Below are positions 9,186 through 64,000 of a stretch of 64,000 nt of DNA, one piece after another. The notes below the pieces were generated by a model, which was given only the letters and a program-made list of their open reading frames with translations, did not search any database and was not told the DNA's origin. The stretch's first letter is position 1, and the number at the start of each line of letters is the position of its first letter. A program made the position numbers and the translations under genes. Source of the stretch: Siniperca chuatsi (Eukaryota > Chordata > Actinopteri > Centrarchiformes > Sinipercidae); NCBI RefSeq assembly GCF_020085105.1, contig NC_058045.1, positions 15,838,833 through 15,902,832 on the forward strand, in the 5' to 3' direction.

Positions 9186-12100
9186 ATGAACAGGTCCAGG
9201 TCCAGCTGGGATAAAAAAGCCCCCCAGCCTCCAGTCACCAGGATAACCCGCAGCTCCAGCTCCCAGGCTAGGCACAACGACCCGGCAGAGAGCCAGGACT
9301 CTGGGCCGGGACCGTATGGAAAACAACGAAAAAAGCAAACGGACTCTGCTTTGGCCCAGGACCTCAGCCAGATGAGTGTGAGCGGACAGGACGGTTTACC
9401 TTTAAGGTGAGAACACATTACAGTAACTTTAAAGTTACTTTATTTATTTTTAATGAATAAATGATAAGGAAAAGGAAATATTACAACTCTCATTACAGCT
9501 CCCAGCAGTCATAGAACATAAATAAGAGCAGGAAGCTCAGATCAGTGATTAACAAACAGAAAACATGTATATCAGTAAGTACAAAACAAAAGGTACAAAT
9601 CCCCAGTTCGGAGTGGAAGCCATATCTGGTCAAATATATATTAAGTGGTATAACTTTGTGCCAGCTCGCTAGACATGGTTTCTTGTCTGTGATCCAATTT
9701 AAAACAATACTAAGAGTCTACAGCTATGCTTGTGGCTCTGTGAAGCTGTACTTAGGCACAGCTGTGCTTTCAGCTAAATGCTAACATGCTAATGTTTACC
9801 AGGTATAAAGTTTACCATGTTCACTAGCTTAGTTTAGCGTATTAGCATGCTAACACTTGCCTATTAGCACTAAACACAGAGCACAGCTGAAGCTGATGGG
9901 AATGTCATTATTTTTGCAGGTGTTTGGTCATAAAGTGTTGGATGAATTTAAATGTTGACCTGATGGTGGTGCTAGAGGAAAAGTCAGGGAGCCACAATAA
10001 TCATTAGGATTCATCATCTGGGGAACATGTCTGTACAACATTTGCGCCAGTCTATCAAGTAGTTATTGAGTTATTTCACAGGAAAAGTGAAAACTAGAGG
10101 AAAAGGGGATCACCAAAGTCAGTGGGCTTCATCCTCTGGTGACATAAATGCCCATCCAATAAGATTATTAAGATATTTCAGTCTGGACCAAAGTGGTGGA
10201 CGAACTGACCAACACACCTAAAATACACAGGACAGAAAAAGTTTCTTTCTATCAATAACAATCAGCAAGTAATATTGTACCATTCTTTATATAATCCCTA
10301 ATTTGCAAGTATCTGTAAGAATCCTGTTTGGGGAGATTATGTCTCTTGGTTATACTTAACTATTTAATAAAAAAATAATTCTGTTGCAAGTAATCATGTC
10401 GGGGATCGTCCCATATGTGATCAGGATGTTTTCACGTGTCTTTTCTTGGCCTGCTCTCCAGTAAAGGAAAGATGTCCAAAGGCAGCAGTGACCCTGTGCA
10501 GGCTGGTCAGTCCTCTGGGTCCAGATCTGATCAGGGCAGTCCTTCTGCGTTTGCTGCCAAGTCATCATCCCGGGGCGGTCTGGCCTCTGTTTCTCGGCTG
10601 GTGAAGCTCGGCCGCTGTAAGAATGTGGTGGTGGTGGCCGGAGCGGGAATCAGCACAGCCAGCGGCATCCCAGATTTCAGGTTGGTGTCTGTGGATTTTG
10701 TTCTCTCTACACCCTCATCTTTCTCTTTACTATTTTGTATTAGTCTTTTATTTATTTATATTTATTATGTTTTGTTCAGTTCCACTCTAAACTTAAAGTG
10801 TAAACTTGTTTAGTGGGTATATAAACCGTCCAGGAACAGATTGGCTCTGGTTTCCTTGGGTCGAGTGTTTCAGAAGAGACATTAAACCCTTGAAAAATGT
10901 ATGAGCAAGAAACTTCCTGTAAGCTGCTCTTTAATGAAAGCACCATGTCAAAATGTCTGTACTTCCACATTTTCAGAACTCCAGGAACAGGTCTTTACGC
11001 CAACTTGGAGAAGTACAACATCCCTTACCCCGAAGCTATTTTCAACATTGACTACTTCTCAAACGACCCGCAGCCTTTCTTCTCCCTGGCCAAGGCTCTG
11101 TATCCCGGCAGCCACCGACCCAACTACATACACTACTTCATCCGCATGCTTCATCACAAAGGCCTGCTGCTCCGAATGTACACCCAGAACATTGATGGAC
11201 TGGAGAAACGTGAGATCTTTTTAAAGGGAACAGCTAGATCGAATAGATCTTTAAATTAAACTGTGGGCTAGCTGAAAGTGCATGAAGTTTTTAAAAACAT
11301 ACACAATAAAATGTAAATGTAAATTCAACTGCATACCCATCACCCAATAACTTACCTACAAGCAATGACAGACATTTTTAACATGTATGTAACCAAACAG
11401 AAATGACAAACTGTCATTGAAGACATTTACTTAAAAAAAAAAAAAAAAAAAAAAAAAACTTTATTCATTCATTCATCATGGACAACATACATTAATTACC
11501 ATCATAAATGTAATGTAAATGTGTGATTTTTCTTTTCTGCAGTCCCTGGGCAGGTTGATGTTATACATGATAAGAAACAAACAAGACATACAAAAGGCAG
11601 ATAAAACATCAGAACTCATGTATAGGAGGATACAGCATGAATGAAAAGAAACCCAATAAAATCTGTTATAGAACAGAAAACAACAGAAAAGACCAAACTT
11701 CACAAAGGAATAAAAATACAATAACATAGAAGGACTTTGTGATGCAGTTAGTTGAATAGTGACTCATACATGCTGAGACATCAGTTCTGCATATTTTAGC
11801 CAAAAATGCCTGTTTATTTTACACTACTTCTGACATGTTGTTCCAAAGCATACCAAAAGTTTGTAGATTAACCTCCTATTTTCCAGGTTCCATGAGTTTC
11901 CATTAATTTTGAAACACAGAAAATCAACCTACAGAGACCTGAAATGTTTTTTTTCCCAGAATGGATGTCCTTGTTTGCTCTTGATGTCCATCATAATATT
12001 TAATAACTTTCTTCACAGTGTGTGGCATCCCAGATGACAAACTTGTAGAGGCTCACGGTAGTTTTGCCACAGCTTCCTGTCACCTGTGCTACACTGCATA

Positions 12101-13441
12101 CCCTGCTGAAGAGGCTAAGGTATGTATGGTCAAAAACTATTCAAATTTAGTACAGTAACTCACTGCATTTGATGCTACAGTAATGTGTCTTGTTTCCCAG
12201 CATGCCATAATGAATGACAACGTCCCCATATGCACATTCTGCGCTGCAACAGTCAAACCTGATGTTGTGTTTTTTGGAGAGGACCTTCCTCAGAAGTATT
12301 TCCTCCACACTAAAGACTTCCCCAAAGCAGACCTGCTAATCATTATGGGCACATCTTTACAGGTAATATTTGTATTCAGTACTTTAAATGGGTTTCTAGT
12401 ACATTTTGTGAGTTTTCAAATTTTCTGAGCTCACTTATATCAGAACTAAAATTAATTGTTTCAGATCGAGCCATTTGCCAGCCTGGTGAATACAGTGCGC
12501 TCCACTGTGCCACGTCTCCTCCTGAACCGACACGCTGTGGGTCCCTTTGAGAAGGTCCCACTGCGGAGAGGAGACCACATGGAGCTGGGTGACCTGGAGG
12601 ATACAGTACGGAGGTTTGCTGAGATGCTCGGCTGGAGCGATGACATTGAAGAGCTGATGGGGAGCCAGGAAACACTGGTGGGTTCCATCTTTTAAAGAAC
12701 TTTTTGCAGGTTATGCAAGTCTCTCTTTGGGTTCTTTATTCAACCTTTTGTGAAATCAAAAGGAAAAGTAGGGAACATAGAGCAGAAAAAGCTTTGGTGA
12801 TATTATACATATAAACCCAAGCCAGTGGAGATACTTATGGGACTTTAAAAGAGTACTCTACTGATTTACCATTCCACTCCTATAACATTGTCAGACTCAC
12901 AATGGACAGTTGTATCATATTGATGCAGCGGAACCAGAGATAGCGTATTTCTTTTTTCTTTTTTTTCCTACACATTCTTCTTCCTTGTCAAAACCTTGCA
13001 CCTACATTACCCACAATGCAACTCAACAACAAGTGACACTTAAAGCAATTTATCAGATTTCACACAGCTCCCTCTGGAGCCAAAAAAGGCTTTATACAAC
13101 TTTTTTTTTCACATATACACATTCACATTACTCCCCAACAGACTTTGATGTGTAAAATCAGTGGAGTTCCCCTTTAACTATCGCTGGACTCTATTTTATA
13201 ATACTTTTGCTGACTATGGCAAAAATTTCTCTCTCTGCAGAGGTTCCCTACATTGATAAGCAGCCCTCCGTCAGTGAGCGGACAGACACCTTGCCAGAGC
13301 AGAGGTGCTTCAGAGTCTCCAGGTAGGATGGAGACATCCAGGCCCAGACCAGGAGCTCAAAGAGCAGCCAGCAGCGGCAGCGAAGAGACAGACTCGGAGA
13401 CAGACAGCAAGAGCTCTGCATCATCCAGCCTGAGCAACTGA
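9186..13441 (+). CDS. SIRT3-like NAD-dependent protein deacylase (class I sirtuin), complete, 7 coding exons
   Basis: Coding exons: 9186-9406, 10462-10680, 10977-11209, 12019-12119, 12201-12362, 12465-12677, 13241-13441; 449 aa, all junctions GT-AG and in phase. The product should remove acyl groups from lysine using NAD+, giving nicotinamide and O-acyl-ADP-ribose. Seen: the NAD-binding loop [14 protein letters not shown] (about 134-147), PYPEAIF, TQNID (216-220), catalytic His237 in EAHG, zinc cysteines C245-x2-C248 and C269-x2-C272, [10 protein letters not shown] (276-285) and GTSL (308-311). All key residues are present. TQNIDGLE and the CGIP segment favour SIRT3 over SIRT2. The N-terminus (1-110) is Ser/Arg/Lys-rich without a clear targeting helix; the C-terminus ends in an acidic serine-rich tail. 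The start is the first ATG after the acceptor; Met78 is an alternative. It converges on ric8b, which suggests the non-mammalian SIRT3 paralogue sometimes called SIRT3-like or SIRT3.2 (inference). Confidence 0.93.
9720..10215 (+). repeat. Dispersed repeat (GCTAACATGCTAATG type) in sirtuin intron 1
   Basis: Contains TGCTAACATGCTAATGTTTA, TAGTTTAGCGTATTAGCATG, CAGCTGAAGCTGATGGGAAT and GTCTGGACCAAAGTGGTGGA in a row. I recognise this order of phrases from a common teleost interspersed repeat. No coding capacity; only one copy is obvious in this window. Confidence 0.5.
11431..11760. repeat. Poly(A) tract and dispersed repeat family D, copy 1 (sirtuin intron 3)
   Basis: About 27 A residues (from 11431) are followed by TTTATTCATTCATTCATCAT and then CTGCAGTCCCTGGGCAGGTT. 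The latter phrase recurs, slightly changed (CTGCAGTCCCTGGAGAGGTT), near 43744 in an rfx4 intron, followed in both by AAAC(A)-rich sequence with ACAGAAAACA motifs. This suggests a dispersed retroelement; no open frame survives. Confidence 0.5.
12844..13177. mobile_element. MITE-like element with imperfect terminal inverted repeats (sirtuin intron 6)
   Basis: The left end TTTAAAAGAGTACTCTACTG (12844-12867) is an imperfect inverted copy of the right end AAATCAGTGGAGTTCCCCTT (13155-13177). The interior includes CATTACCCACAATGCA and CTCCCTCTGGAGCC. It occupies most of the intron before the last sirtuin exon and has no coding capacity. Confidence 0.6.
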
Positions 13442-14634: not shown

Positions 14635-14834
<200 letters not shown>

Positions 14835-16436: not shown

Positions 16437-19400
16437 CTAGTCAGAGTCTGATCCTGAGTTGTCTTCAGGTGGATCACAGAGAGTTTCTTCAAGAGGTGCT
16501 AACGTCCCGTCGGGCCTGACCCCCATTGGCCGGATCACGTTCTGCCTGTGGACACAAAAAGAAAAACATCAGAGATGCCCACTTGCTAGATGGAGAGAGT
16601 TTAGATTGGAAGGTTGCCAAATTGCAAACATCAATGGACATGACTTCCTTCATGTATAATTTCAAAGTAAACAAACTTTGTAGACAAAACCCTTTGTGTC
16701 CACAGACAGTCTTAAGAGGGCTTTCACTTGTACATCTTTACTCTCTTACTTGCAGAACTCGAGGACCCTCACTTGACAAACCCCCCCCCCCCCCCCCCAT
16801 GGACACTCGCCCCTGTCTGGCCATCCTCTCTCCCTCTCTGCCCTCCTCTCCTGTGGCAGTTTAATTACAGGATCAGCGCTCAGACTAATCTCCTCAAAGC
16901 CACGGCTTCCCCTTCATCCTAATCCAATTATACCTGCACTGTGTGTCACCACTCCCTCTCAGATGATTTATCAGCGAATTATCCATCAAAGATTTAAAAA
17001 GGACCCATTTGCATTCATTTGAAAGAGACTGAAATATAAATGGCCATGTAATTCCTACTGATTCCTGCAATTAAATTGAACTTATCCTGGGAAATCTACA
17101 GGTTAAGTTCTTTAAATGGAGACAGAGAAGACTTATGGTGTGGTTAATTCTGAAAATATTTCAGCATCTTTTCAGCGATGAAACCTGCAGAGAGGCACTG
17201 CCAGCCCACAGCCATATATCACAAAGTTAGCAAGTACAATGAGGACTAACAAGACAAAATAAACAAAAACATCATCTCTCTTAATTAGAGCAAAAAAATA
17301 AAAAATCCCTCGTCTTCTCCTCAGCAGTGACAGAGGACTGGGGGTCTGGCAGATGTAAGAGTGGGTGGTGGTGCAGAATATGTGCTAATTGGAGGACCAG
17401 TTAAGCAGTTAGGGGAGCACATTCTTGCAATGCTCTGACTGATCTCCCTAGAGCCTGTACTGAGGAAGCACCTCTCCATCATCATCACACCTCCTTCACT
17501 GAGGAAGAGAAGAAAGAGGAAAGGAATCTTCCTCTTCTGGGCACACGTGCCTCATTACAGCTCAGCCCCCTCTTTGGTTTAACAATGACGAGGTCAGCTT
17601 TCTTATGTCTGAACATTTGTTCACCCGTGTCTCTTCCTCTTTATCCACGTTCCACCCAAATTGCTTTGTCTAGTTGTGCCTCTGTCTCAGTCCACTCCCC
17701 ATCCAATGACTGGCTCCTCAGAACGAGAATAAAGTCAGGACACATTTGTTATTATGTGGCACATAAAGGAACCAGGACCGACAAGCTGACTGTGTGAGCC
17801 AATTAGGTGATAATTAACGGAGCGGTGGTAATGATGCTGCGGTGGCGTGCCGGCAGCTTCCATTTTACTCCAGCTGAATGCTGTGGCGTGCTGGAAGTCC
17901 AAGCCTAATTGAAGCTAACGGCAAGAGATTCTTCCTTTGATGAATCGGTTGGCAGGGAGCGAGCTCACTGTTACCTTTTGTACAGGCATCATGCTTGACT
18001 AACCTCTGCTCGCTAAGGAAAGGTCAACACAAATACAGCAGAGCTCTTTGCAGAGAAAACAATAAATAATACGAATAATTTGAGTAGGGGAAGCAACAGA
18101 CAAAGTTAATCATCTTAGTCGAGCCTTTGCAAAAGAACACAATTCATTATTTGTCAAAGACTTCTGTGGCATCTTTATGTTTGTCCTGTTTGTGTCTTAG
18201 TTAGCAGGGTATCTGAAAACCCTTTTTTGTTTGTTTAACAACCTTTCTATTAAATTTTCTATTATACACAGATGCCAGACCCCATTAAATACAGTACCAA
18301 AAATCTCAAAAACCTGTCAGCAGATTCTAATGATGATTCTAATGGTGGAAAGTTGGGCAACGGGCCCTGTTCCATCAAAACAAACTATTTAAAACATTTA
18401 CAGTATTATTACGAGAATAAATTGAGAGCATTCTGCAGGAGTTATTTGCTCTCTGACTCCTTTCTAGTTTAGTTTATTCACCTTGACAACTTGTCAAACA
18501 TATTAACAAGTTTCTGGGCTTCATACTCCTTCTGCTCCTCTGTCATCTCTTCAATGGGGTTCGGCATCGGCTCCTCCACATGACCAGTGATGGGGTTGAT
18601 GCTGGAACAAGCACATGAGCGAGCTTACTGTACAGCTGCAAATGGATCCATACATTATCAATGCATACACATTAATGTATTAAATAAGTCCTGTGCAGAG
18701 CACTCACAAGGGTTTTGCAGATTTGTATTCCTCTGTGTCTGAGTCTTCATCTTCAGAGTACTCAGTCTCTCCTCTCCCTCCTGCAAGAAGTCCTCGAGCC
18801 ACCAGGAGTCCTGCTGCGTTTCCATATCCTGTATACTTCAACAGGTTGTCCACTGCAAGACGACACCACAGATACACAAGGTTGTGAAGGTAAATATAAA
18901 TGTTCATGTGTAAGGATGAGCCGTGCTATAGTTATAGCTTAATCAAGCATCTGGCAGTGCACTTCTTCATCAATTGCACCCAACTAGAGACATCATTCCT
19001 GCTCTCTCATTCTCATATTTTCTCATCTGAAGTGCTCTCTACCCCACGTTCCTCCCATGACCCGACCACTGCCACCCCCCACCACACACCACACACCCGC
19101 TTACCACTTTCTTTGCAGAGGACAAAGAGAAACTCTGCAGCCGTCTGCTTCACACCCATGTCAACATGTGTCATAAGGCGAACCAACTTGTTTCTGACGG
19201 CGGTGCCAATCTCTGGCCTGATCTTCACATCTTTCAGTGGGGGAAGTACCTGAAGATGCAGAGATTATAAATCATTCAGATTATTGTTTTTCTGTCACTA
19301 TAACCTAGTCACTGGCTAATGAACACACACACAGGTTATTAAATAGCTATGAGGTCATTAAAATCAGTTTAGGATCCTGGTGAGACTTCAGTACTTTACT

Positions 19401-22400
19401 CAGACACTTCAGCAGGGCAGGTGCTTGCCTTTCAGAGCAAAGGAGCACCAGAAATGAAAATTCTTTATTATTGTCTTTGTTTAAATCAGTTGGCAGCTAC
19501 TGTACCTGAGCTTTGATATATATGCGGATCTCCCTGTGGTGTCTGGATCCTTCAGTCAAAAGGCTGAGCACCGGAGTCAAACCCTCTTTGTAGTTGGAGC
19601 CCTGCTTGGGGTGACACAAACCACAGACACTTCACAAGTTGGAACAGTGGGTAGATTTCACTCAGTAGTGCACTCGTGGGTAATATGAAGGATCACAAGG
19701 TAAAGACAGGATGGGTGGATGAGAAACTGAACGACATGCAGCAAAGCTTTGTGTGAAGTCATTGTGAGTGTATTTTAGTTCTGCTAGGCCAAGTATCAGA
19801 TCAGATCTGAGGGCTACCAGGTCCAGCACTACATAACAAATATCAAATAAATGCAAAATGTCACATAAAATGTGTACCATGGCTGGCTGTGAGCGTGCGT
19901 ATCTTTGCAATGTATGCATCTTAGTTTAAATGTAAGCTCAAAATATTTCTGTTATGTCCTGTAGTGTCAATTACAACAAATTTACTCCATTGGTTTTCTT
20001 ACAAGTTTTTTAAGGACATATCACAGTTTTAGATTAACTATAAACAACACAAACAGATATATTGGACAAGTAATCAGTAATTTTCAGTGTGTAAACGATG
20101 TTGCCAGTTCTCTGTCTTTGCTGCAGAGGATGAACATTACCTTGTCGATCCTTTTCTCCATGAAGTCTAGCAACACCTGGACTGCATCCATGTTTTTCCC
20201 ACCATATTTCTCTAGTCCTCCCTGGACAGGCACGTCGATTAGCTTGTCCAGGCAGGACACAGGCAGGTTATTCAGCAGATTGATGGCATGGCTGGAGACA
20301 AAAAAATATTTTTTAATGACTTCGATCTTTACAAAATGTGAGACATTTAACAGTCCAGTAAATAAAAGGGACACATCTGTTTCTGAGATGCAACTGTCAA
20401 AGGGTCCGTGTGGTTGAAGAGGTCAAAGTCTAAATGAGGTTTATGAAGTGAAGAAGATGATTAATAGATGAAAGCTTTGGAACATTTTGCCTGAGACAAG
20501 TTGTTCCTAAGTCAAGGACCCCTCATGGCAAAGGACCAATCACCTCTTTTTTTAAATCTACATTTTGTAACAGCTGCCAGATGACCTCAGGGTGCGATCT
20601 GGCTCACATGGGGTAAAGGAGCTTTCAAATGTCGAATCATTTCATCTAACTCCCACTTGTGCCACATTGTTTAATCTACACAAATCTATGTTGTCAAGAC
20701 AGCAAAATACAGGAAATCAAGTTTTATAATGAAAATGTTGGAGAGCTATTTACGCCGTTCACCACTTTATAATTTGTGCTCTGCATACAATCCTCAGCTG
20801 TGTTTAGTAAATAGAAAATTCTACCTCCTTTACTGTAGGCAGATTCATCAAGGCTGCCTAGAGTTTTGAGTTTTATTTACTTAGTGTGTATATTTACATT
20901 ACTAGTGTCTGAGAAAACCTGCAATAGTCAGTTAGAGACCGATAATGAGAAAGATTTTGGCTGAGAGAGGATCTCTGAAATGGTGAATTTGAAAAGACAA
21001 AAAGCTGGTTTCTGGGATAGCTGGGCAGCACAGATGGAGGACAAAGCTGGTTGAATATGGTGAATACTGCCAACGCCAAATATCACAGGTCTTCAAATGC
21101 TCATAATTCATAAACGTAAAGAGAAACAAGTGGTGTGTAGCTTCACCTGGAAAGACAATCTTAATAATATTGTGTTCTAGTGTGCCGTGTAATCTTATAG
21201 TGTGAGAATGTTTGTGAAATTACTTCTTAATTGAGTGCCGCACACCGATTTTAAAGTTGGTTATTATTTTTAAAGACCTTCTGTTTAACACAATATATTA
21301 ATGTAATTTTGCTGTTTTCTATATAAAAATAACTTTACCCGTTCACACTCCCTTATTTCATTTAGACCAGTTCTGTCACATACTCACATTCCAACAAACT
21401 ACAACAGAGTTATGTTGGTCAAAAGGGCCAAACTCCCATGACAGGTTCAACCAGCAACTTGACAGGTCAAGAGAAACATCAGTCACTTATACATGACACT
21501 GTTTAAATTTCAGTCGATGGCCACAGATTCTTGGCATTCCTGCATTAAATTACCATAAGAAGAAGATACTGCTGCAGTATTACGACAGCTAAGAGCATTT
21601 AGAAGATGAAACACCCAACAAGGCTCCAAAGAAACATCTCTGTTTGGCCTGTTTTTCCCACAGCACTGCAGTCTGCTATCAGATTATGGGCTATCAGTCT
21701 TAATTTCTCTCACTCATAGCTGCCTCTGCCTGTCCAGAAGGGTGCTTACATGCAAATTACAGCAGGTGATTTTCCAGTGGAGCACATGGATACAAGTTAG
21801 TTTGCTGAATGGAGGTATCTGTGTGCTTTTCTATAAAAATCAGTTTCAAATTAAGTTTGGCCAATCTCTTGGCTCAACAGCAGCATTCTAGTAAAACACA
21901 CAATCACCAAATACAGAGGTGGGGACACACATTTACATACTGTAAGCAATAAAACACAGAAGCATGAAATGACTGGGTCGTTTGATGCTTGTTTTGTGTC
22001 CTTTCACAGGTTGCAAAGTGCAGAGCGCCTTCATGCAATCACGGTGTAGCTTACTAAAAGAGATTAAAATATTAAGAGCAGTGAGGAACAGACCTGTGTG
22101 CTTCCTCTGTTTTCTCCTCTGTCTCAGTCTTCAACATCAACAGATGGCGCAGGATGGCAGCGATGAGTCTGAACTGGTGGTCATCCTCCTATCAAATCAA
22201 GGATGTACAAAAACATGAATTCCAAGCAGACAGTTTTATTGTTCAGAGGTAAAGCAAAACTATAAAGGTAAAAAATACTTAAGCTACAAAAACGGGAACC
22301 TGGAGGCACAGGCCTAACTGCAGAAATAGCTGCCTTTAATGAGGCATCACAGCCAGTCTAAAGAGACAGAGTGAGATCAAAGCCTTTAGTCTAGATTTTA

Positions 22401-25400
22401 AAAAAAGGGAGAAAGAGGAAGTTTGGATTTTTACAGTATCACAGAGGAGAGCAGGGTTTTACTTGAGCCTAAGAACTAAATTTGGTGTCATTAAGACTTA
22501 CAGTGTGTTAGATGCAGCCTTTGCGTTCTTTCTTTGTCATATGCACAACAATTACAGTGAAGCAGTTGTTGGCAATGAAATTCTTGTTCTCAGGCTCCCT
22601 CCAACAATGCTCCAACAAAATATAAAGTAAAATGAGAGATGAGAAAAAGAGAATCTAAGACAAAGACATAAATAGTGCAGAAGTTAAAATATAGGAATAT
22701 AATGTAAATAAAACAGAATAAAATAAAATATAATACAGAGGTAGACTGGTGTACAGTAGTGATGACATTAATAAACTGTATTGTAGACAGGTTGAGCAGT
22801 AATGTAGTAAATGTATATGCTTAATAAGAACTGGCTGTGGACAGGTGAGAACAGAATGTAGACAGGTAATGCACATAAATATATATATTGTGATGGTTTA
22901 ATAGCTTGTAAACAGTAGTAAAATAAATATATATGTATACTGCAATGTGTGCAGGTGTAAACAGGTAATATGTATACTGTACTGTAAAACAACCCCAAAG
23001 TCCTCTTCTCCACATTCAACACTCTTTTGAACCCATCTCCAGCCTTCAGTTTAAATGATGAAGCCTCAGTTCTCAAATGACTTTTTTTTAAAGAAAAAAA
23101 AAAAATCGACTCCATTAGATCCAGTATTACAAATGCAGATTTATCAGCTCTCTGTGATCTGCCAGTGGGTGAGCATCCATGTACTATGACATCTTTTAGT
23201 TTGACAACAGATGATGAAATTAGTGTCACCATCAACAAAATAAAGTCATCCACAAGACCCCACACTAGACCCTGCTGCTACCAACCTGTTGAAATCCAGC
23301 TTCCAGTGCGTCTCTCATGAAAAAACAAGAATAATCAACACATCTCTGCAATTAGGTACTTTCCCCTCTGCTTTTAAAACAGCTCTGGTAAAACCGCTCC
23401 TTAAGAAGCCTGATTTGGACATTAACGACCATGCCAACTACAGGCCCATCTCAAATCTTCCTTTTATATGTAAACTTTTTGAGAAGATTGTATCTGAGCT
23501 GTTACAAGGTCATCTAAATACCAATAACATATAAGATAAATTCCAGTCCAGCTTTAGATACAACCATAGCACTGAAACCGCTTTTTTAAAAACGTAGTAA
23601 ATGACCTAAGAATTTCAACTGACTCAAACAATGTAGCAGTCCTAATTTGATATGATCGATCATGGCATTTTAATCAATCAACCTGAGAAATGGGTGGGTC
23701 TCTCTGGCACAGTGCTTGACTGGTTTCTCTCATACCTGTCTGAAAGAAAATTCTTTATTAGTTTAGGTGACTCTGTGTCACAAACATCGAAAACGGCGTT
23801 CCTCAGGGAAGCATTCTGGGTTCTATTCTCTTTTCTTTATGTATGCTCCCTCTGGGCAATTTAATTAGTCACCATAATTTTAACAAGGTCACAAAAACAT
23901 AATTTTTTCATCTGAGGAACATACTTACTGTAACTCTCTTTTTACTGGTCTCCTTAAAAAGTCAGATAATTCAGAAAGCTGCAGCCAAGATTTTGACCAA
24001 TACACACAAAAAAAGAGATCACATTACCCTTATTATCTGCTCGCATCACTGCACTGGCTACCTGTATCTTTTAGAATTGATTTTAAAGTCCTTTTATTTA
24101 TCTACAAAGCCTTACATACTCTAGCACCCTCATACATCAGGGACTGCCTCTCATTTTATGTCCCAACAAAAACTCTCAGATCTTCCACTGCCTTTCTTTT
24201 AGAAGTTCCTAAAGTGTCCCACAAGAAATCTGGTGAGGCTGCTTTCTCTTTTTATGGCCCTAAACTGTGGAACTCCCCTTGGACCTCAGGACAGCAAACT
24301 CCCTTGGTATTTTTAAAAATAAATTAAAGACCTATCTTTTCGACTAGGATTTTAATTTGGGTTGATGTTCCTGGTATCATTTATCATACTGTTTATGTTT
24401 TCCTTCTATTGACTTTGCTATTTATTATTGATATAATATGTCTTGTGAAGCACTTTGGGCTGCATCTTTGCATGAAATGTGCTATACAAATAAAGTTATT
24501 ATTATTTGAAATACCTTCTTAAGACTTGACTGCCAAATTTGATAGTGATTTTCCAAAATTAGTTGTAGCTACAAAGTATTACAATCACAATCACAATCAA
24601 ATATAATATATACTTCACACATGGTCCAAAAGCATATGTAGCAAATATTGTCCTATTTGACTCACAGGATAAGATGATACTGTTTTTTGGCCTGTGTGTG
24701 AAGCCTATGAAAGAGCGAGCTAGTGTGTCAAATGAAAGCAGCCTAATGCTGGAAAATACTGCTGGTGATATTGGTGTAAAGAAGCTGTACATTTTGTCAC
24801 AGTAAGAAAAGCACAGGTGTAAATAGTAAAACATGCTGGCTCACTGTCACACTGTTCCTGCTATGACCATTCAAAATGTCTGCTGTGAAAAAGATCTGTG
24901 CTGGACTGGATATCGTTGACAGTGACTGATCTGATTTACATGTGAAACACTATCGTTATTACACAACTTAAATGTGAAAGTAAAAAAAGAGGAGGGCATT
25001 TTGTGAGTGCGACCTGTCGAATCATGTCTGTGTATTTCATAATCAAGTGAAGCTACTGCAAAACCAGTTTAATATGGACATGTATAAAAGGCTTGTATGA
25101 AGTTGATTTTACAGTTTTGATTTTTTTTTTTTTTAAAAAGGGGTCAGTGGTGGTCCCTAAATTTACCTTCTCTCTGTGGACATTTGAGAAAATCACAGGT
25201 GTAACTAATAACATTAATCACACCTATTCATAAGGACTCTCCCCCCACACATTGATTTTCTCAGTAATTGTCTTGGCTGCTCTTTAAGTGCTACACTGGT
25301 CATAGCTGTGTTCCTGATAGTGTGTGATTTGATGTGTAATATTTGTCTTCCTCATACAGCACATAGTTTTGCATGAACTGAATCTTGAATTGCAATGTTT

Positions 25401-27035
25401 TAATCAAGATACACTACATTTTATGTCACATTTACATTTCAGGGATTCAGCTGACGTGCTTACCACTGACAGTAAATTACTGAGAGTGTCTTCGTCAGAA
25501 AGACGTAAACAGGACAAGTGGTTTGTGATAGATATAATTTGGCTGTTGTGGGGATCAGATGTATGATCTTTGTGGTCCAGGACAGTCTACTCTGTAATTG
25601 AGCAAATGACTGAGCCAGAAACATTTACGTTTCTGGTGATGCATACCAGACCAGCTCTTTACCCCTCCGTATAGAGTCAGAGAACAAACCCAAATAACTA
25701 GCATGCAACATGAACCTTTACTGTAACATTACACACTCTTACAGACTCACAACACACTCACCTCACCACTAGCCTCAGACAGTGTGAGGTTGAACAAGGC
25801 TTTGAGCACTTCCATTGCTCGCTCATTGTCCTTTGCAGGCATGGGCAGGGCCTGCGGATCTGGACAAGCAGCTTCATAGGGACCAACCCAGCGCACATCC
25901 AGGGTGTGCTCCAGCACCTCTGTCAGTAGTCTCACAGCATGCAGTTCTCTCCTCAAAACTCCTCTCAGATCAGGTCTCAGGGCAGACAGCAGGAAGAGAA
26001 GGCGCAGTGTGAACAGGCCCACCTCGTGGTGCCATGTGCGGACTGTACGCAGGGTGGCACACAGGCCATGAGCCAGCTGTACATCTACACTAACCTGCTG
26101 AGCTGCAGGACTGTTGTACACCACATTGCATAAGCACTTCAAGGCCTCCACCACCACTCTCTCCTCCTCCTCTGACTGGATGTCTTCCTGAGAGCTTTTT
26201 TCACTGTCACCTTCTTCCTCTCCAGCATACAGCCCCGCCATCCCTCCCAGGATCAGCATGCCCTCCCTGGTGGCTACAGGTGCGAGGACACGCTTGTCTC
26301 TGGACAGGATGCGGAGTGTCTCCAGACATGTCTTCTGACAGCTGGACTGCACCTGCCTCCCAAGTACTGTCAACACACTCTGACACAGCTTCTGAGATTA
26401 CACAGAGTGAAAAGATTACAGATTATAACATAACTGGGCTACCTTGATCATCTAACAACCAACTGCTCATACAACTAGTACTTACACTCCGCAGGGTTTC
26501 TTCCTTTTGGTCAAAAGTGAAGGTGTGACTGTTCTGAAACAGATAAAGATGCTCATGGTGGACACCTAACAACTGAGCCTGACTTGTAACAGACATATTA
26601 AACACGCCATATTACAAATAAGCCCCAGCCTCTTTGAAACGGATATAAATGTCAACATATTCCCCAGAGATCTCCAAGAAATAGCTAATGTTTGCTAATT
26701 GTGCTGAATAACTCTACGTGCACTAACATGGTTTGTGAGCAGGCAGCATTAGCATTATGTGTTTGCCTCATTCATAGGTTTGGGTGTGATATGTTTGTTA
26801 TAGAGCATCTTTGGTTTAACGATTAGATATCATATGTTAACATTTTAGCTTAGTTGGCTAGTAGCTAACTCAAAGCTAGCTGTTTAGCTAGCTAACGTTA
26901 GCACCGTCGTTTGTTTTGGTTGACGTAAAAACGAGCAGAGCCGCGACTCACCTCTCGATTATACTGCTGCAGAAGCTTCTCGACTTCCTCTCCGTTGGCA
27001 GTTTCAAGCTGCGACAAGATATTATTCAAATCCAT
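16437..27035 (-). CDS. ric8b: RIC8B, chaperone and guanine nucleotide exchange factor for G-alpha subunits, complete, 10 coding exons
   Basis: Exons in transcript order: 27035-26952, 26533-26486, 26391-25762, 22188-22094, 20291-20141, 19601-19506, 19249-19105, 18852-18708, 18601-18482, 16545-16437; 540 aa, close to human RIC8B. RIC8 proteins fold nascent G-alpha subunits and act as receptor-independent exchange factors in the cytoplasm; RIC8B serves mainly G-alpha-s/olf (family knowledge). Seen: the armadillo-like helical body, with [14 protein letters not shown] and [14 protein letters not shown], then [17 protein letters not shown] (exon 7), [14 protein letters not shown] (exon 8) and [20 protein letters not shown] (exon 9). 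[12 protein letters not shown] (about 448-459) matches the acidic CK2-type phosphosite region of RIC8A. VDNLLKY and HVDMGVKQ fit RIC8B better than RIC8A. The start ATG sits in a near-perfect CCACCATGG context. rfx4 and polr3b follow on the same strand, as around human RIC8B. One long intron (22189-25761) carries an antisense LINE. Confidence 0.95.
22980..24510 (+). pseudogene. Degenerate L2-like LINE, antisense in a ric8b intron
   Basis: Fragments of a reverse transcriptase are readable in shifting plus-strand frames. They include [20 protein letters not shown] (about 23430), then [20 protein letters not shown] and SYLSERKF (about 23670-23750). The 3' end shows the typical LINE-2 tail: TTGTGAAGCACTTTGGGCTG near 24440, then ATACAAATAAAGTTATTATT at 24484. 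Several stops and frameshifts separate the fragments, and the catalytic YADD block is not recoverable. It is a dead copy lying opposite to ric8b transcription. Confidence 0.8.
24790..24893. mobile_element. MITE-like element, family A, partial copy
   Basis: The phrase AAGAAAAGCACAGGTGTAAA is followed by TTCAAAATGTCTGCTGTGAA (about 24867-24890), which matches the right end of the family A element at 6327-6350. A left terminal repeat is not clear, so this is an internal-to-right-end fragment. Confidence 0.5.
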
Positions 27036-39600: not shown

Positions 39601-42600
39601 CCCTTTAACTTAATTATTTTAATTTAAGTGAACCTCACTGATGTGTATGCACATCATTAGGCAAGACATGCTTCGGAACTACAAGAACAATTTGTTTAAC
39701 ACAATAATACACTGAAATTATACTTTATAGCAGTATAATATAGTAAAAAGTATACTATAGTAAGAAGTCCATAAGCCTCTAAAGTTCATGATATTATTAT
39801 TATATTATCAATAAGAAAACAATTTACAAGGTAGCCTAAAGTTTGGTAAACTGCTTAAATCACTTAAATAAATACTAACCAGGACATTACTGTTAATGCA
39901 GCTGCTTTAATTCTGCAGGTTTGCATAAATAAAAATAGACATTTGTTAAATCAGAGCAGTAAAAAAACAAACATACTATCCTCTGCAGTTTTAATAACAG
40001 CAAATAAAGAAATGGTACAAAATTCACTCATTTTAAGAGTGAAGGTTACAACACATGCTCACCTATCAGGTAGTGCTTGCAGGACGGTGGGCATCAGCAC
40101 CCCAGAGATGGCCTTGTAGAGGATGGAGTCACAAACACCTACTATGTTCACCACCGTGGGGGAGCCGAGGACAGGGAGCATGTGGGGCGGCATGCCCTGC
40201 CAGAAGTGCAGCAAGAAGCTTTGGACCTGAAAGTATCACACACACACACACACACACACACACCGTAATATTCAATATTACAGGAAATAAAAGTTCAGCT
40301 ATAGGAATTAGTTACATACAATCAAACTTTTTGCTGAGACAGATTTGGACTTTTAGTAAAACAGAATTGAATCTGTAAAAACAGAAGAAATCTTGCCTCA
40401 TCAAAGTTGGCTCGAATAACAGTGTCTAGTATCCTCTGACAGTGCGTTCTGTACATCATGATGAAGGTTGACACCTGTGGGCAACAACAGAGGATTAATC
40501 TAATTGCATCACAAACTTAATAGTTTTTCTCTTCTGGGGAAACTAAAAAAAAGTGCTACAAAAACAAGAAAATAAATCTTGTACAAAGCATGTGAACCAA
40601 TAAATACATGTTACAGGTCTAGGCTGGAGCAGAGTAATATAAAACGAGCTTTAGAGATCAGCAAAACACAAACCATTTAAAATCATGGCCCCTCTTTAAA
40701 AGCCGGACAGCTAGTGCCTGTCCTTTGTCCAATCCTAGATCTTATTATCTCCCCCAAAAGATTAAGAGTTAGTGAGGAGCCAGCATATAAATCCTCAAGG
40801 TCCTTCTCTAAATGCAAACCCAGTGAAGGTCCCGGGGCAGATAAAAGGCCAGAGCCAGAGGGGGCGCAGAGATGGCAGGGAGAGGTGGGAGGTGGGGGGG
40901 CTGTAAGGATGGACTTTTAAAACTCCTGTTTACCCTCTCTTCTGGCAGGCTGGCGGGCAAATTTAGGTCTTTGACATTTGGAAACTCTGGCAGGAGCGTC
41001 CCCAGTTTGGAGCGCGGTGAATACGCCACTGTCTGCTTCGTGACCTCTTTCTTGCCCGTCTCGTTCACCCACGCTGCTCCCTTTTTGGAGTACATCACGT
41101 CATAATACTGAGAGGACTCCTTTACCGCTATGCCGTAGTAGTGATACCTGAGGAGAACAGAGGGTTAACGGGTGAATAGCATCCTTTCAGCACAAGTAGG
41201 ATCACTATAGGCTATAGAAAACTGTGAAGGAATGAAAAAGAAAAACAATTCATACACATTTTATACAAATATATATATATGTCTTTCTAAATAATACATT
41301 TGTTAAAATTTGTTATAAATTCATTCAAAAAGTTAGTTCCATCAGATTACATGCTTCTCTCTGATTTTGTTATATAAATTCTGAAGGACAAAAAAATCTT
41401 ATGAAAACGTATACATAGTCTACAATTTCAGACCTTTACTAATATCAAATGTGATAAATGCTTCAGGTTAAGAAAAGTGTAGCTTTCCTGTTAAATAGGT
41501 AAAGAAATTTACTTTTTTGATAAACTCTCAGGAACTCAGGATGACAATGGACTGAAGTTTAACTTTTAGTGTTGTTATCCTGTGTTGTGCTTAAATTGTA
41601 GGCTTGACATGGGGGGGCATTTGGACAAGTGTATAATATGTGTAGGTAGTTTATGACAGAACCAAACCAAACCAACTTACTTAGACTGGCCTCTTGTCCC
41701 AAGTCTTCTGGTAGTTAACGCTGGAAACTGTTGCCTTATGATCTGTTCATTGTAGAGAGAAAAAGTTGTCAGTGTGCTGCAGTGTGAGAGAGGTTGAACT
41801 TTCTTTTTGCTGTTAGATCAAATTCATCTCAGCCTTTCATAGTAACTCATAAAAGTAAAGAGAAAAAGAAAAGGAAGTGGAAACAGGTGACATAAGGAAC
41901 CAAATAAGATCTTTATAAAATATCAACTTGTGCGTATATTTTTTACTTAGTGAGAGAAAATGCTGTATAGCAGAAAAAGGGTTGGGGATTGTTTGACTTA
42001 GAATCTAATACAGTAAATACAGAATACATGACTTAATACTGCACTTGTACAGTATCAGTTCTTTGTGAGAAAGTGTTTAGTAACGTTTGTCAGGAGAACA
42101 ACATGAAAGTCTCATAGCTGTATCCACAGGGAGGTCTGTGAGGGGAAAAAAGCTTTGAGAGTCATCCATTTATGACATCCAGGAGTATTACTTTTTTCCC
42201 CCTATATCAGCAGTCTCTCCTCATCTATCCACCACCCATCCTCTGTCCTTCTCACTCTCTTTCTCTTCTCCACTCCCTCTCTCTTCCTTTCCTCTCTTTT
42301 TGTCCAAAGAGATTGGCTCCTTGGTCCAGCTCCTGGTGCAGAAACTTTAGCAAACAGTGTAGCTCTCCATTGTGTGGGATGAAAAAAGAGGCCAAGCTGT
42401 GAAGTTTCTGTCAGGCCCCGCTTGATAAATGAGCAGACAGGGAGGCAGTCCGGGCCCTCTCTCTTTTTTTTGTCCTGAATCAATGAAGCCTTCCTAAAGG
42501 ACACCCCACACTGCTCCAGCCACTGATCTAACATTCCGCAACATCTCACCCTTCCAAATTTCCTTTAATTACACATTAATCCAGGCCCCTTCTCTTTTTC

Positions 42601-45600
42601 AATATCTTCCGACAGGAGCTATGGAAGGGTGGGGGTGGGCTGGGTTGGGGGTTGGGGCCAGAGTCCAGGGTACAGGGGATGGCTGGGGGTAGGAAGACTG
42701 AGGAACTTCTTGGGGTTGTGGGAACAGACGAAAGCACATCTCCTTTGGCTCTAGATTATGTGTTCAGTGAACGGCTGCAGAGCTTCACACTGAGCTGCAG
42801 TTGATATTACTGCAACAGCAGCCAGAGCTGCAGTACAAAACCAACCCAGACAAGAAATGGTCAGACTAATGTTTATGGCTGATGTAGTGTGTGAGATTAT
42901 TGCTTTCACAGGGGTAACAACATCTGAATGTTGTTTTGTATCTGTCCTCTGTCTTCTGAGTCATTTTGTTCTGATTACTTTAAACTTACAGTGCAAATGT
43001 ACATTAAAACCCCAAAAAGCTGAGAAAATTCTCCATACTCATTTTGGGGTGTTTTTAAAAAAAAAAAAAAAAAAAAGCTCAACTGCACATCATCTGCATC
43101 TGTAATCAAACATTTTAAAGAGACACTGACTACAGATGTTACAGAGTTAATGACTTTCATGTTTTCAAGACATTTAAATGATTTTAGATGATTTTAAGTT
43201 AAACTGGATGCGGGTGGGATTGATGAGTTGTCTGACTGTTTAACCTTCATCTCCACTGAAGTTTGAATCTTACCTTTCCAAAGCTGGCCGCGTTCACAGG
43301 CTGTGTGTCATGCTTTTCACTGAAGTCTAGGTAATGCATGTAGAGGGCACTTCGGGGGATACACACTCCTTCGGCTATCTCATAGTTCTCTTCTAGCCTG
43401 TGAATGACGATGGGAATTATCAGCGCTCAGGGAAAACAAACATGAAAGTTTGAGCATTGTTAAAATGAATGAGACGAAATGAGAGAGTCACAACTTCAAA
43501 CAGGCCTCTTATGATCATGGCCTTTCTGGTAATAATGGTGAAAATGTGCAGTAATTTTCTGTGTAAATGTTTAGGAAACCAGATTAAATTCAGGTCAGCA
43601 AAAGGAATCAATGCAGTGAAATAAGACTATTTGATGATATAAAATTATATGATGTTAAAAGTTTACATTTCATTTACTTAAGAGGGACATTAATAAACAC
43701 CATGTAAATGTACCAGATTTAGCCATTAGGGCTAATTGTTATCTGCAGTCCCTGGAGAGGTTAATGGTTTTGAAAAACATAAAATGTAACACACAACAGC
43801 CCATGAAGAAACAGAAACAGTCGAAACAGAAAACTGAATAAAAGCACAGTCATATAACATTAAACAGAGGCAGCTTCGTGCACATTAAAGCAGCGTCAAG
43901 TCAGCACATTCACATCATCAACATGTCATGTGCAGTATAAAGCATCTACACAGACATTTAACACTACAGTTAGTACCAAACAGCATGCGCCATAGGGCAA
44001 ACTGTCTCATACGCCCCAACAGGATTAAATGTTCAGCAACACACCACAATCAGCAGATGCACTGTAGCACACAACGTTAAATCTATCATGTCTAGCAGAA
44101 ACTAAGCATGACAACTCAGATATCACAACTACACAGACATTAACAACTGCTCCTGGTGGGGATACATGTGTAATAGACAAGTCCAAAAAATCATTTTCCT
44201 GATGACAGTAAGGTGCCTTGTCTCATTAACAGCTGTAGTGGACAAATTCTGATAACTTCTAGGCAGCGCAAAATGTTACCTGCATTTTTGTCAAATTTTC
44301 CATACATATAAGGTTGTATTTCATTATTCTTTTACAGTGATCATATGCGTTTGGATTTTAATCTGTTTTCAGTTCCTGCATATAAAGGGTTGCGTTGGTT
44401 TTAGTGTAGTATTACATGACTGTGTCTACCTGGTTAAAATAATTAATGTGTGGCCGAAAAAAAAATCTTAGCCTCAGTAAGTGGTTTCTGATGCACACCA
44501 TACTTGCCATGTTGATGTATAATTGATTTGCATTGAAATACTTAGACTCGTGAACTGTTTAAATCTTCATTAAGCAATATATTTGATATTAAAATTGAAT
44601 AATATTTTACTGCAGATCCCAATGAGAAGCAAAACACAACTCTACAGCTTTCTGAAGTTGTCAGCGGGACGTGTATGTAGGCAACTGTTTGCTAACACGT
44701 TAGCCATAATCAGCCATCTGAAAAACTCCATTGGCATCAGTGATGTGGCTCTGGATTGGTTCATCTCTTATCTGTTATGCTTGGAAATGCCTCCTCCTCT
44801 TGCACTTCTCTTTGTGGGGTCCCCCAGGGGTCTATTCTGGGCCCCCTTTTATTTACCATCTGCATGCTACCCCTGGGGCAAATCATGTGCAGGCATAATA
44901 TTGATTTTCATTGCTAAGCAGATGATACACAACACTTTGTCCCGATAAAGCCTGGTACCATCTATGTGTTCTTTATTATGTCCTTGCTGAAATTTATCAC
45001 CTGTTTTTGTGGCACATTTTGATATTTAGGTAATTCGATTTTTATCATTTATGGTATTGAAAGCTTTTTTAAAAATTGTGACCTAAAAAGACTGTCACTA
45101 GTACACATCCTCTGTTCGTGAGGTTAATTGCTGTCTTTTTTTAATTCAAAAAGCAGATAACACAATGAAACAAAGGTATCCTGTGAAATGAATGCTAATA
45201 TGTCAGTTATTAATGACTATAATGTGGCAGCCATATTTGAAAATTAGTGTATTTATTGCAGTTTTAGTTTTACTAATAAATCCAATATTATGCCTCCCCA
45301 ACAACAATCCTAAGGCCTTGAACATACAACAGAGGAAACCATCATGTGCAGTTTGGACCAGGTCAAATGGTCAGAATAGGAAACTGATGTTTAAAGAAGC
45401 AACAGATTGATTATTAAGAGGTAAATTCAGAGTCTGGACCTTCACAGAGTTACCAAAGTACACATTGAATCCTCCACCTCGCCTGCATCAACACTTCTGT
45501 TTATGCTTTGAATTCTCTGTCGGATTAATTTAGCTTGTACCCATTGCTTCACTTCTAATATTGATAAAAACGTTTTCTATGCCCTTTACCTTATTTCTCA

Positions 45601-53545: not shown

Positions 53546-62450
<8,905 letters not shown>

Positions 62451-62539
62451 CTGGAGTCAAGAAAAGTGTGTTTCAGAAAAGATATAATCTAGATGACAAG
62501 TTATATAATAAGCAAAGCAAAATCTGTTCTTTTAATACA

Positions 62540-63012
62540 TACACACACACACCTATATCCACACACACACACACCTATATATATACACACACACACACCT
62601 ATATATACACACACACCTATATATACACACACACACACACACACATATATATACACACACACACACATACATACATATACATACATACACATACATATAT
62701 ACATACATACATACATACATATACATACATATATACATACATACATACATACATATACATACATACATACATATACACATATACATACACAAACATATAT
62801 ACACATATACATACATATACACATATACACATATACATACATATACACATATACATACACATACATATACACATATACATACACATACATATATACATAT
62901 ATACATACACATACATATATACATATATACATACACATACATATAAACATACATACATATACACATACATACATACATACATACACACATATATGTATAT
63001 ATATATATATGT
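62540..63012. repeat. Compound (CA)/(TA)/(CATA) microsatellite, about 470 bp
   Basis: CA runs pass into TA runs and then into long (ATAC)n and (ATACAC)n mixtures. The tract sits in a polr3b intron directly between the exon at 62352-62450 and the reverse transcriptase fragment. Long open frames on both strands here translate to Tyr/His/Thr or Val/Tyr/Cys repeats and are not genes. Confidence 0.95.
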
Positions 63013-64000
63013 ATGCCGCACACATGGATCACTGAATGCTTAAAGATGTACAACATCAACAGGACTCTGAGACACTTCATTGCGAACTCGATGAGGCTGT
63101 GGAAAACCACCCTTGAGGCCAATGGCAAGCCACTTGCACAAGTATCCATCAAATGTGGCATATACCAAGGAGATGCTCTGTCCCCACTGCTGTTCTGCAT
63201 AGGTCTGAATCCCCTCAGCCAAATAATCAACAAGACTGGCTATGGATACCGACTCAGGAACGGGGCCACCATCAGTCACCTCCTCTACATGGATGACATC
63301 AAGCTATACGCTAAGAGCGAGCGGGACATCGACTCACTGATCCACACCACCAGGATCTACAGCTCTGACATTGGGATGTCATTCGGGCTTGAGAAGTGCA
63401 GTCGAATGGTGACAAAGAGAGGGAAGGTAGTCCACACAGAAGGGGTCTCACTCCCAGAAGGAACAATAGCAGACATTGAGGATGGGTACAAGTACCTTGG
63501 AATACCACAGGCAAATGGCAACCTCGAGGAGGCAACAAGGAAGACGGCAACGGCCAAATACCTCCAACGTGTAAGGCAAGTCCTAAGAAGTCAGCTCAAT
63601 GGCAAGAACAAGGCCCAGGCAATAAACAGCTACGCCCTGCCAGTGATCAGATACCCTGCAGGAATAATAAGGTGGCCAAAGGAAGAGATACAGAACACAG
63701 ACGTTAAGGCGCCGAGCTCCTCACCATGCATGGAGGGTTCCATCCCAAATCCAGCACCCTGAGACTGTACGCTAGCCGTAAGGAAGGCGGCCGTGGACTA
63801 GTGAGTGTGAGAGCCACTATCCAGGATGAAACATCCAAGATCCACAAGTACATCCAAGATAAGGCCCCAACAGATGACGTGCTCAGGGAATGTCTCAGGC
63901 AATGGGGAACAGAGGAAGACGTGCTGGAGGAAGGACCATCATGGGAGGACAAACCCCTACACGGGATGTACCACCGGAACATAACTGAAGTGGCTGATAT
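63013..64000 (+). mobile_element. 5'-truncated non-LTR retrotransposon reverse transcriptase, antisense in a polr3b intron
   Basis: An open frame of 249 codons (63013-63762) encodes the second half of a reverse transcriptase. GIYQGDALSPLLFC (about 49-62) is the conserved QG..SP..F block, LLYMDDIKLYA (about 90-100) holds the catalytic YMDD, and YKYLGI marks the thumb. The frame changes near 63703-63715; downstream another plus-strand frame carries LLTMHGGFHPKSS and stays open to the window edge. The first residues ([10 protein letters not shown]) normally follow an upstream AYDS-type motif, so the copy begins abruptly at the microsatellite and lacks the palm aspartate in that motif. Such products are often labelled R2- or R4-like; the clade is not certain. 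It cannot be autonomous as it stands. Confidence 0.85.

Follow-up and report, generated by a model that had tools for sequence, protein, structure and literature searches.

Gene Structure and Product

The DNA analyzed here (the window) is a 64,000-nucleotide stretch of the genome of the mandarin fish, Siniperca chuatsi, in which a sirtuin gene is followed by ric8b, rfx4, and polr3b. The sirtuin gene is almost certainly the sirt3.2 gene of this species, encoding a class I deacetylase that depends on nicotinamide adenine dinucleotide (NAD+), is a paralogue of SIRT3, and persists in fishes and amphibians but not in amniotes, which have lost it. This lineage is already known, and the gene in the window is an ortholog of a published one. 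It is intact, with a coding sequence of 1350 bases in seven exons that runs on the forward strand from an ATG at position 9186 to a stop codon ending at 13441 and encodes 449 residues. All six introns are of the GT-AG type; the exon borders (Table 1) are splice sites placed by hand. Once spliced, the gene yields a protein that agrees with the S. chuatsi database entry “NAD-dependent protein deacetylase sirtuin-3” (P0001) at each of its 449 positions (100% identity). An additional coding exon upstream of the ATG was considered, as the frame stays open to a plausible splice acceptor, and was rejected: no evidence for it was found, and the published cloning primer begins at the ATG.

SIR2 is the sole Pfam family found in residues 1 to 383 (193 bits, with a cut-off of 24), and NCBIfam models match only at scores far under their cut-offs. 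The GAG (residues 134 to 136), DFR (145 to 147), and QNID (217 to 220) motifs, His237, and Cys245, Cys248, Cys269, and Cys272 do not vary across the SIRT3.2 and SIRT3 proteins aligned (28 of 28); we take these to be the sirtuin residues for NAD binding, catalysis, and zinc binding. Among the PDB structures, those closest in sequence to residues 1 to 383 are human SIRT3 (359 bits), SIRT2 (287 bits), HST2 (224 bits), and SIRT1 (192 bits). An earlier first-pass annotation of this DNA, made from the letters alone, had described an intact sirtuin with all catalytic and zinc residues, of the SIRT3 type and adjoining ric8b; each of these statements agrees with the searches reported here.

Gene Order and the Ordinary sirt3 Gene

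The gene order around sirt3.2 is tmem263 - sirt3.2 - ric8b - rfx4 - polr3b. The ric8b gene is convergent with sirt3.2, and its open frame is closer to Synembryn-B (157 bits) than to RIC8A (111 bits). The tmem263 gene is found at positions 15829386 to 15829670 of contig C4, on which the window spans 15838833 to 15902832, and thus 9.2 kb before the window; it shows 69% identity to the human protein. Inside the window, the TMEM263 query had no match, and motif scans for RFX and TMEM263 gave none. A CRY1 query had no match in the stretches examined, including the 30 kb before the window. The SIRT3.2 block in print consists of polr3b, rfx4, ric8b, SIRT3.2, and tmem263 (PMC9897032, PMC11172991). The S. 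chuatsi block is the same as the published one, which supports the identification of the gene as sirt3.2.

A search of the S. chuatsi genome for SIR2 yielded 15 exon matches. The ordinary sirt3 gene is located on another contig, C1, at positions 3,636,224 to 3,641,031. Its pieces are 67 to 95% identical to Micropterus SIRT3, from residue 1 to residue 343 of 352 (the lowest value is for a piece that crosses an intron), and the two proteins share 94% identity over 289 columns. This gene is flanked by psmd13, head to head, on one side and by drd4, some 23 kb away, on the other, and psmd13 and drd4 are the neighbors given for sirt3.1 (PMC11172991). A query with a piece of mammalian RIC8A detected no ric8a in the 70 kb around it. 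Genome-wide, 16 exons match Ric8; they are located on contigs C4, C20, and C21, with none on C1. Thus, the second sirt3 gene considered in the first-pass annotation exists, but it lies between psmd13 and drd4, not near ric8a as had been expected. Three more loci of the Ric8 family are seen at C4:2.025-2.028 Mb, C20:13.862-13.867 Mb, and C21:24.988-25.005 Mb.

Phylogenetic Placement

The matches listed in protein searches include 127 proteins taken to be of the SIRT3.2 type, about 15 of them without a name, and 120 taken to be of the SIRT3 type. The tree was built from 21 of the former, 27 of the latter, and human SIRT3, SIRT1, and SIRT2, with rows picked for spread and for species that have both genes; the SIRT3.2 rows are all teleost by name. 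All 21 SIRT3.2 rows fall on one side of a single branch with a support of 100/100, and the support remains 100/100 after the ordinary sirt3 of S. chuatsi has joined the tree. SIRT3 of human, Gorilla, and Jaculus is placed among the SIRT3 rows. In the catalytic domain, identity is 75 to 98% among SIRT3.2 proteins and 68 to 100% among SIRT3 proteins, versus 54 to 63% between the two groups, and ten differences are fixed between the 21 SIRT3.2 rows and 29 SIRT3 rows. Both proteins are present in each of the 8 other fish species that were paired, where they are 57 to 61% alike; SIRT3.2 of S. chuatsi and its own ordinary SIRT3 are 57.6% alike.

These data leave no room for the gene being an ordinary sirt3 that has moved, or sirt2, and both readings are refuted. 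The database name “sirtuin-3” would suit a relocated sirt3, but the ordinary gene is present beside psmd13 on C1. As for sirt2, the catalytic domains of the 21 SIRT3.2 rows are only 50 to 53% identical to that of human SIRT2, which is placed outside the SIRT3 and SIRT3.2 rows in the tree, and the PDB scores favor SIRT3. The PDB scores, the tree, the identities, and the gene on C1 together rule out both readings. Accordingly, the grouping with mammalian SIRT3 or with SIRT2 that the first-pass annotation had set against its own proposal was not observed, and the SIRT3.2 lineage that it had named is the one supported by the 100/100 branch, the separate sirt3 gene, and the published synteny.

SIRT3.2 was defined in 2023 by Opazo et al. 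(PMC9897032), whose Figure 6 presents six diagnostic residues. According to these authors, the gene occurs in amphibians, lungfish, coelacanth, and both cartilaginous and bony fishes and not in mammals, birds, or reptiles, with traces in a turtle. The ancient sister relation of SIRT3.2 to all SIRT3 proteins and its absence from mammals are given here as reported in that paper; the SIRT3.2 matches listed here, a set of limited length with little bearing on absence, include no named mammal. Several of our own results weigh against the assignment to an ancient paralogue. SIRT3 forms a single clade in 18% of the bootstrap trees (12% when the ordinary S. chuatsi sirt3 is added). A tree with a teleost-only duplication is 3.09 log units worse and is not rejected, with a P value in the approximately unbiased test (p-AU) of 0.372. 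Searches with full-length and ancestor-like baits revealed no named non-teleost SIRT3.2 among the matches listed, and because such rows are missing, the age of the split cannot be dated from this tree. The AlphaFold model of the protein (from 28 sequences) is poor and contributes little: its mean predicted local distance difference test score (pLDDT) is 58, with values below 50 nearly throughout residues 1 to 111 and 384 to 449 and in most of core residues 140 to 191.

It is nevertheless very unlikely that sirt3.2 is confined to teleosts, having been copied from sirt3 in the third genome duplication, as the statistics of the teleost-only tree and the length of the SIRT3.2 branch (1.52 changes per column) would allow. 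Against this origin, SIRT3.2 is reported at a conserved locus in amphibians, lungfish, coelacanth, and cartilaginous fish, and as traces in a turtle (PMC9897032), and the S. chuatsi block matches the published SIRT3.2 locus. A duplication confined to spiny-rayed fishes is close to rejection (p-AU of 0.0515). Holding SIRT3 together as one clade costs nothing (p-AU of 0.569). The tree envisaged in the first-pass annotation is therefore recovered in part: a teleost clade stands apart from fish and mammalian SIRT3, but its sisterhood to all SIRT3 is not established by the constraint tests (p-AU of 0.569 versus 0.372).

The “SIRT3” of an Earlier Mandarin Fish Study

A previous study of mandarin fish brain cells cloned a gene under the name “SIRT3”, quantified its expression, and knocked it down (PMC8754121). 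All five oligonucleotides given there, for cloning, quantitative PCR (qPCR), and RNA silencing with a small interfering RNA (siRNA), match sirt3.2 exactly and occur once each in the window. The cloning primers correspond to the two ends of the sirt3.2 coding sequence: SIRT3-F covers its first 25 bases, starting at 9186, and the reverse primer its last 26, from 13416 to 13441. Compared with the genomic DNA of the ordinary sirt3, mismatches number at least 8 and 9 for the two qPCR primers, 9 and 11 for the cloning pair, and 6 for the siRNA; the comparison covered the window and the ordinary sirt3 gene. Judged by these oligonucleotides, the gene studied in PMC8754121 is sirt3.2, since they match it exactly and differ from the ordinary sirt3 at 6 to 11 positions, and they would not be expected to touch the latter. 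Because the study reports cloning and expression between the same ends, it also supports the ATG and the stop codon of the gene model.

In that work, overexpression of “SIRT3” raised the expression of GLS1, GDH, and IDH2, the activity of IDH2, and the virus yield, and lowered the activity of alpha-KGDH; knockdown had the opposite effects (PMC8754121). The antibody was a commercial anti-SIRT3, which may see either SIRT3 or SIRT3.2. As the oligonucleotides are those of sirt3.2, the link from mTOR through PGC-1alpha and “SIRT3” to IDH2 belongs to SIRT3.2, and PMC8754121 represents a functional data set for a teleost SIRT3.2. This reassignment was not found in print: a literature search for SIRT3.2 with mandarin fish returned no paper, and PMC9897032 and PMC11172991 do not contain the words mandarin, Siniperca, or ISKNV. 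In a largemouth bass “SIRT3” paper, the primers in the excerpts fit SIRT3 proper; the excerpts of a bream “SIRT3” paper mention an antibody and contain no sirt3 primer.

The naming problem extends to the databases. The S. chuatsi protein is filed as “sirtuin-3”, and its relatives are filed under the same name or as “SIRT1 domain-containing protein”, a label carried by no fewer than 6 of the 120 relatives listed, so that the mislabeling foreseen in the first-pass annotation does occur. The zebrafish sirt3.2 gene goes by the locus name si:dkey-103i16.6 among these matches. Although SIRT3.2 has been published, the name is absent from the database entries of mandarin fish and its relatives.

Predicted Activity, Terminal Regions, and Location

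NAD+-dependent deacetylation is an established mechanism of sirtuins in general. By analogy, S. chuatsi SIRT3.2 is predicted to be an NAD+-dependent protein lysine deacetylase, in which the SIRT3-type catalytic core (residues 114 to 378) would bind NAD+ and acetyl-lysine, His237 would act as the general base, and the four-Cys zinc module would be structural. The expected products are nicotinamide, O-acetyl-ADP-ribose, and the free lysine.

Conservation over the 127 SIRT3.2 proteins is 0.92 in the catalytic core, 0.79 in a block of residues 46 to 68, 0.77 in the TRITRSSSS segment, and 0.71 in the last 27 residues; the other tail segments show values of 0.46 to 0.60, with 0.60 and 0.46 in the flanks of the block. 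The pattern LxxxLxxMxV in this block of SIRT3.2 presumably belongs to the class of CRM1-type nuclear export signals. Out of 127 SIRT3.2 proteins, 120 have N-termini of 60 or more residues, and a pattern of this class is found in 110 of these (shuffled mean, 3.3; highest, 10). They are not independent cases, because the proteins are related and were retrieved with full-length queries that favor rows keeping the block. For SIRT3, the count is 9 of 76 N-termini, from 120 proteins, against a shuffled mean of 16.3. When a stricter expression was applied to the block as a whole, 26 SIRT3.2 rows were missed. The C-terminal end of SIRT3.2 is conserved, acidic, and Ser rich, and contains what we take to be many possible CK2-type sites.

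The N-terminus of SIRT3 is hydrophobic, acid poor, and presequence-like. Over the first 40 residues, the medians for SIRT3.2 versus SIRT3 are 5 versus 12 hydrophobic residues, 3 versus 1 acids, and 4 versus 1 prolines, a composition that makes a mitochondrial location of SIRT3.2 in fish less certain. SIRT2 is a sirtuin that shuttles between the nucleus and the cytosol, and cleaved presequences usually drift, whereas the block of residues 46 to 68 is better conserved than its flanks. Together with the frequency of the export-class pattern in SIRT3.2 relative to SIRT3, these observations raise the possibility, which we consider doubtful, that teleost SIRT3.2 is not (or not only) mitochondrial, and that its disordered N-terminus, with KQRKKQ next to LxxxLxxMxV, provides for nucleus-cytosol shuttling or a dual location. 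In its tentative full form, the presequence would have been replaced in teleosts by a disordered but conserved segment bearing a CRM1 export signal beside a basic stretch, complemented by an acidic, phosphorylatable C-terminal tail, and the enzyme might act outside the mitochondria or both inside and outside.

Several data favor the mitochondria instead. Mitochondrial target peptides are reported for all sea bream Sirt3 paralogues (PMC11172991), and the elephant shark SIRT3.2 is mitochondrial (PMC9897032). Yellow catfish “SIRT3”, which could be either of the two genes, is described as mainly mitochondrial by fractionation. Residues 1 to 30 of S. chuatsi SIRT3.2 are basic with one acid and might form a presequence, and the N-terminal helical moment of SIRT3.2 is no lower than that of SIRT3 (0.41 versus 0.37). 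The 26 rows missed by the stricter expression also argue against shuttling, as does the relatedness of the 127 proteins, a bias that shuffling leaves in place, and pattern matches are no proof of export. Fish SIRT3.2 is presumably active in the mitochondria at least in part, and its long tails may govern location and regulation. The export-like motif of teleost SIRT3.2 was not found in print, and literature searches for SIRT3.2 with nuclear export or with the zebrafish locus name returned nothing to the point. If the motif is functional, the place where the enzyme acts needs rethinking, and teleost “SIRT3” results obtained with sirt3.2 would have been assigned to the wrong compartment.

Other Features of the Window

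The positions of all features are listed in Table 1. A perfect AT array is found shortly past sirt3.2. Near the right end of the window there is an AC/AT repeat, which is long and degenerate. The two reverse-transcriptase-like frames are presumably retrotransposon remains. An Rfam search of the window gave no match.

Table 1. Positions of genes, oligonucleotides, and repeats in the window
Feature	Position	Strand	Description
sirt3.2 exon 1	9186-9406	+	Residues 1-73; ATG; basic, Ser-rich start; conserved block with nuclear-export-like motif
Conserved block	9321-9389	+	Residues 46-68
sirt3.2 exon 2	10462-10680	+	Residues 74-146; rest of N-terminus, start of catalytic domain, GAGIS
sirt3.2 exon 3	10977-11209	+	Residues 147-224; through TQNIDGLEK
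sirt3.2 exon 4	12019-12119	+	Residues 225-258; His237, first zinc Cys pair C245/C248
sirt3.2 exon 5	12201-12362	+	Residues 259-312; second zinc Cys pair C269/C272; siRNA target at 12321
sirt3.2 exon 6	12465-12677	+	Residues 313-383; end of catalytic domain
sirt3.2 exon 7	13241-13441	+	Residues 384-449; low-confidence tail, conserved acidic/Ser end, stop codon
C-terminal end	13358-13441	+	Last 27 residues and stop codon
“SIRT3” oligonucleotides of PMC8754121	9186, 11110, 12072, 12321, 13416		Cloning, qPCR, siRNA; exact matches
(AT)91 array	14638-14819		Perfect
ric8b	18481-26328	-	Extent of Ric8 exon matches (Pfam Ric8, genome matches); long open frame 25750-26397
Reverse-transcriptase-like frame	23244-23531		Pfam RVT_1, E 0.0089, under cut-off
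rfx4	41078-43414	-	DNA-binding domain exons; tblastn with RFX4 segment, three pieces, 71-91% identity
polr3b	56848-60972	-	Open frames 56848-57141 and 60652-60972; Pfam RNA_pol_Rpb2_6 in both; human RPC2, 140 bits, in the second
AC/AT repeat	62535-63014		Long, degenerate
Reverse-transcriptase-like frame	62947-63759		Pfam RVT_1, E 7e-15

Comparison with Known Sirtuins

The S. chuatsi gene resembles SIRT3.2 of jawed vertebrates in the type of its core, its neighbors tmem263, ric8b, rfx4, and polr3b, the reported position as a sister of SIRT3, and the absence from mammals (PMC9897032). The elephant shark protein has deacetylase activity and raises the level of adenosine triphosphate in cells (PMC9897032). 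Unlike the mandarin fish protein, it seems to have 372 residues, as its N-terminal truncation construct is numbered 95 to 372 (PMC9897032), and because of this length of about 372 residues it should be without most of the 66-residue C-terminal tail of S. chuatsi SIRT3.2.

The sea bream gene was renamed sirt3.2 in 2024 by Simo-Mirabet et al.; it is expressed in immune tissues and gills and shows a strong drop in muscle with age (PMC11172991). Its protein, P0016, which is equated with AHX56275 from the species and protein name only, is 88% identical to S. chuatsi SIRT3.2 over 98% of the length, and the two genes have a common synteny block (PMC11172991). The species differ in that sea bream has two tandem copies of sirt3.1 (PMC11172991), whereas one was found in S. 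chuatsi.

With SIRT3 (sirt3.1), the sirt3.2 product shares the zinc and NAD residues and a core that is 57 to 58% identical to both human SIRT3 and the SIRT3 of S. chuatsi itself. The two genes differ in location, with sirt3 found in the order psmd13 - sirt3 - drd4, and their products differ in the kind of N-terminus. SIRT2 is, like SIRT3.2, a class I sirtuin, and it has an N-terminal export signal. It differs from SIRT3.2 in its lower sequence identity and PDB score and in its position in the tree.

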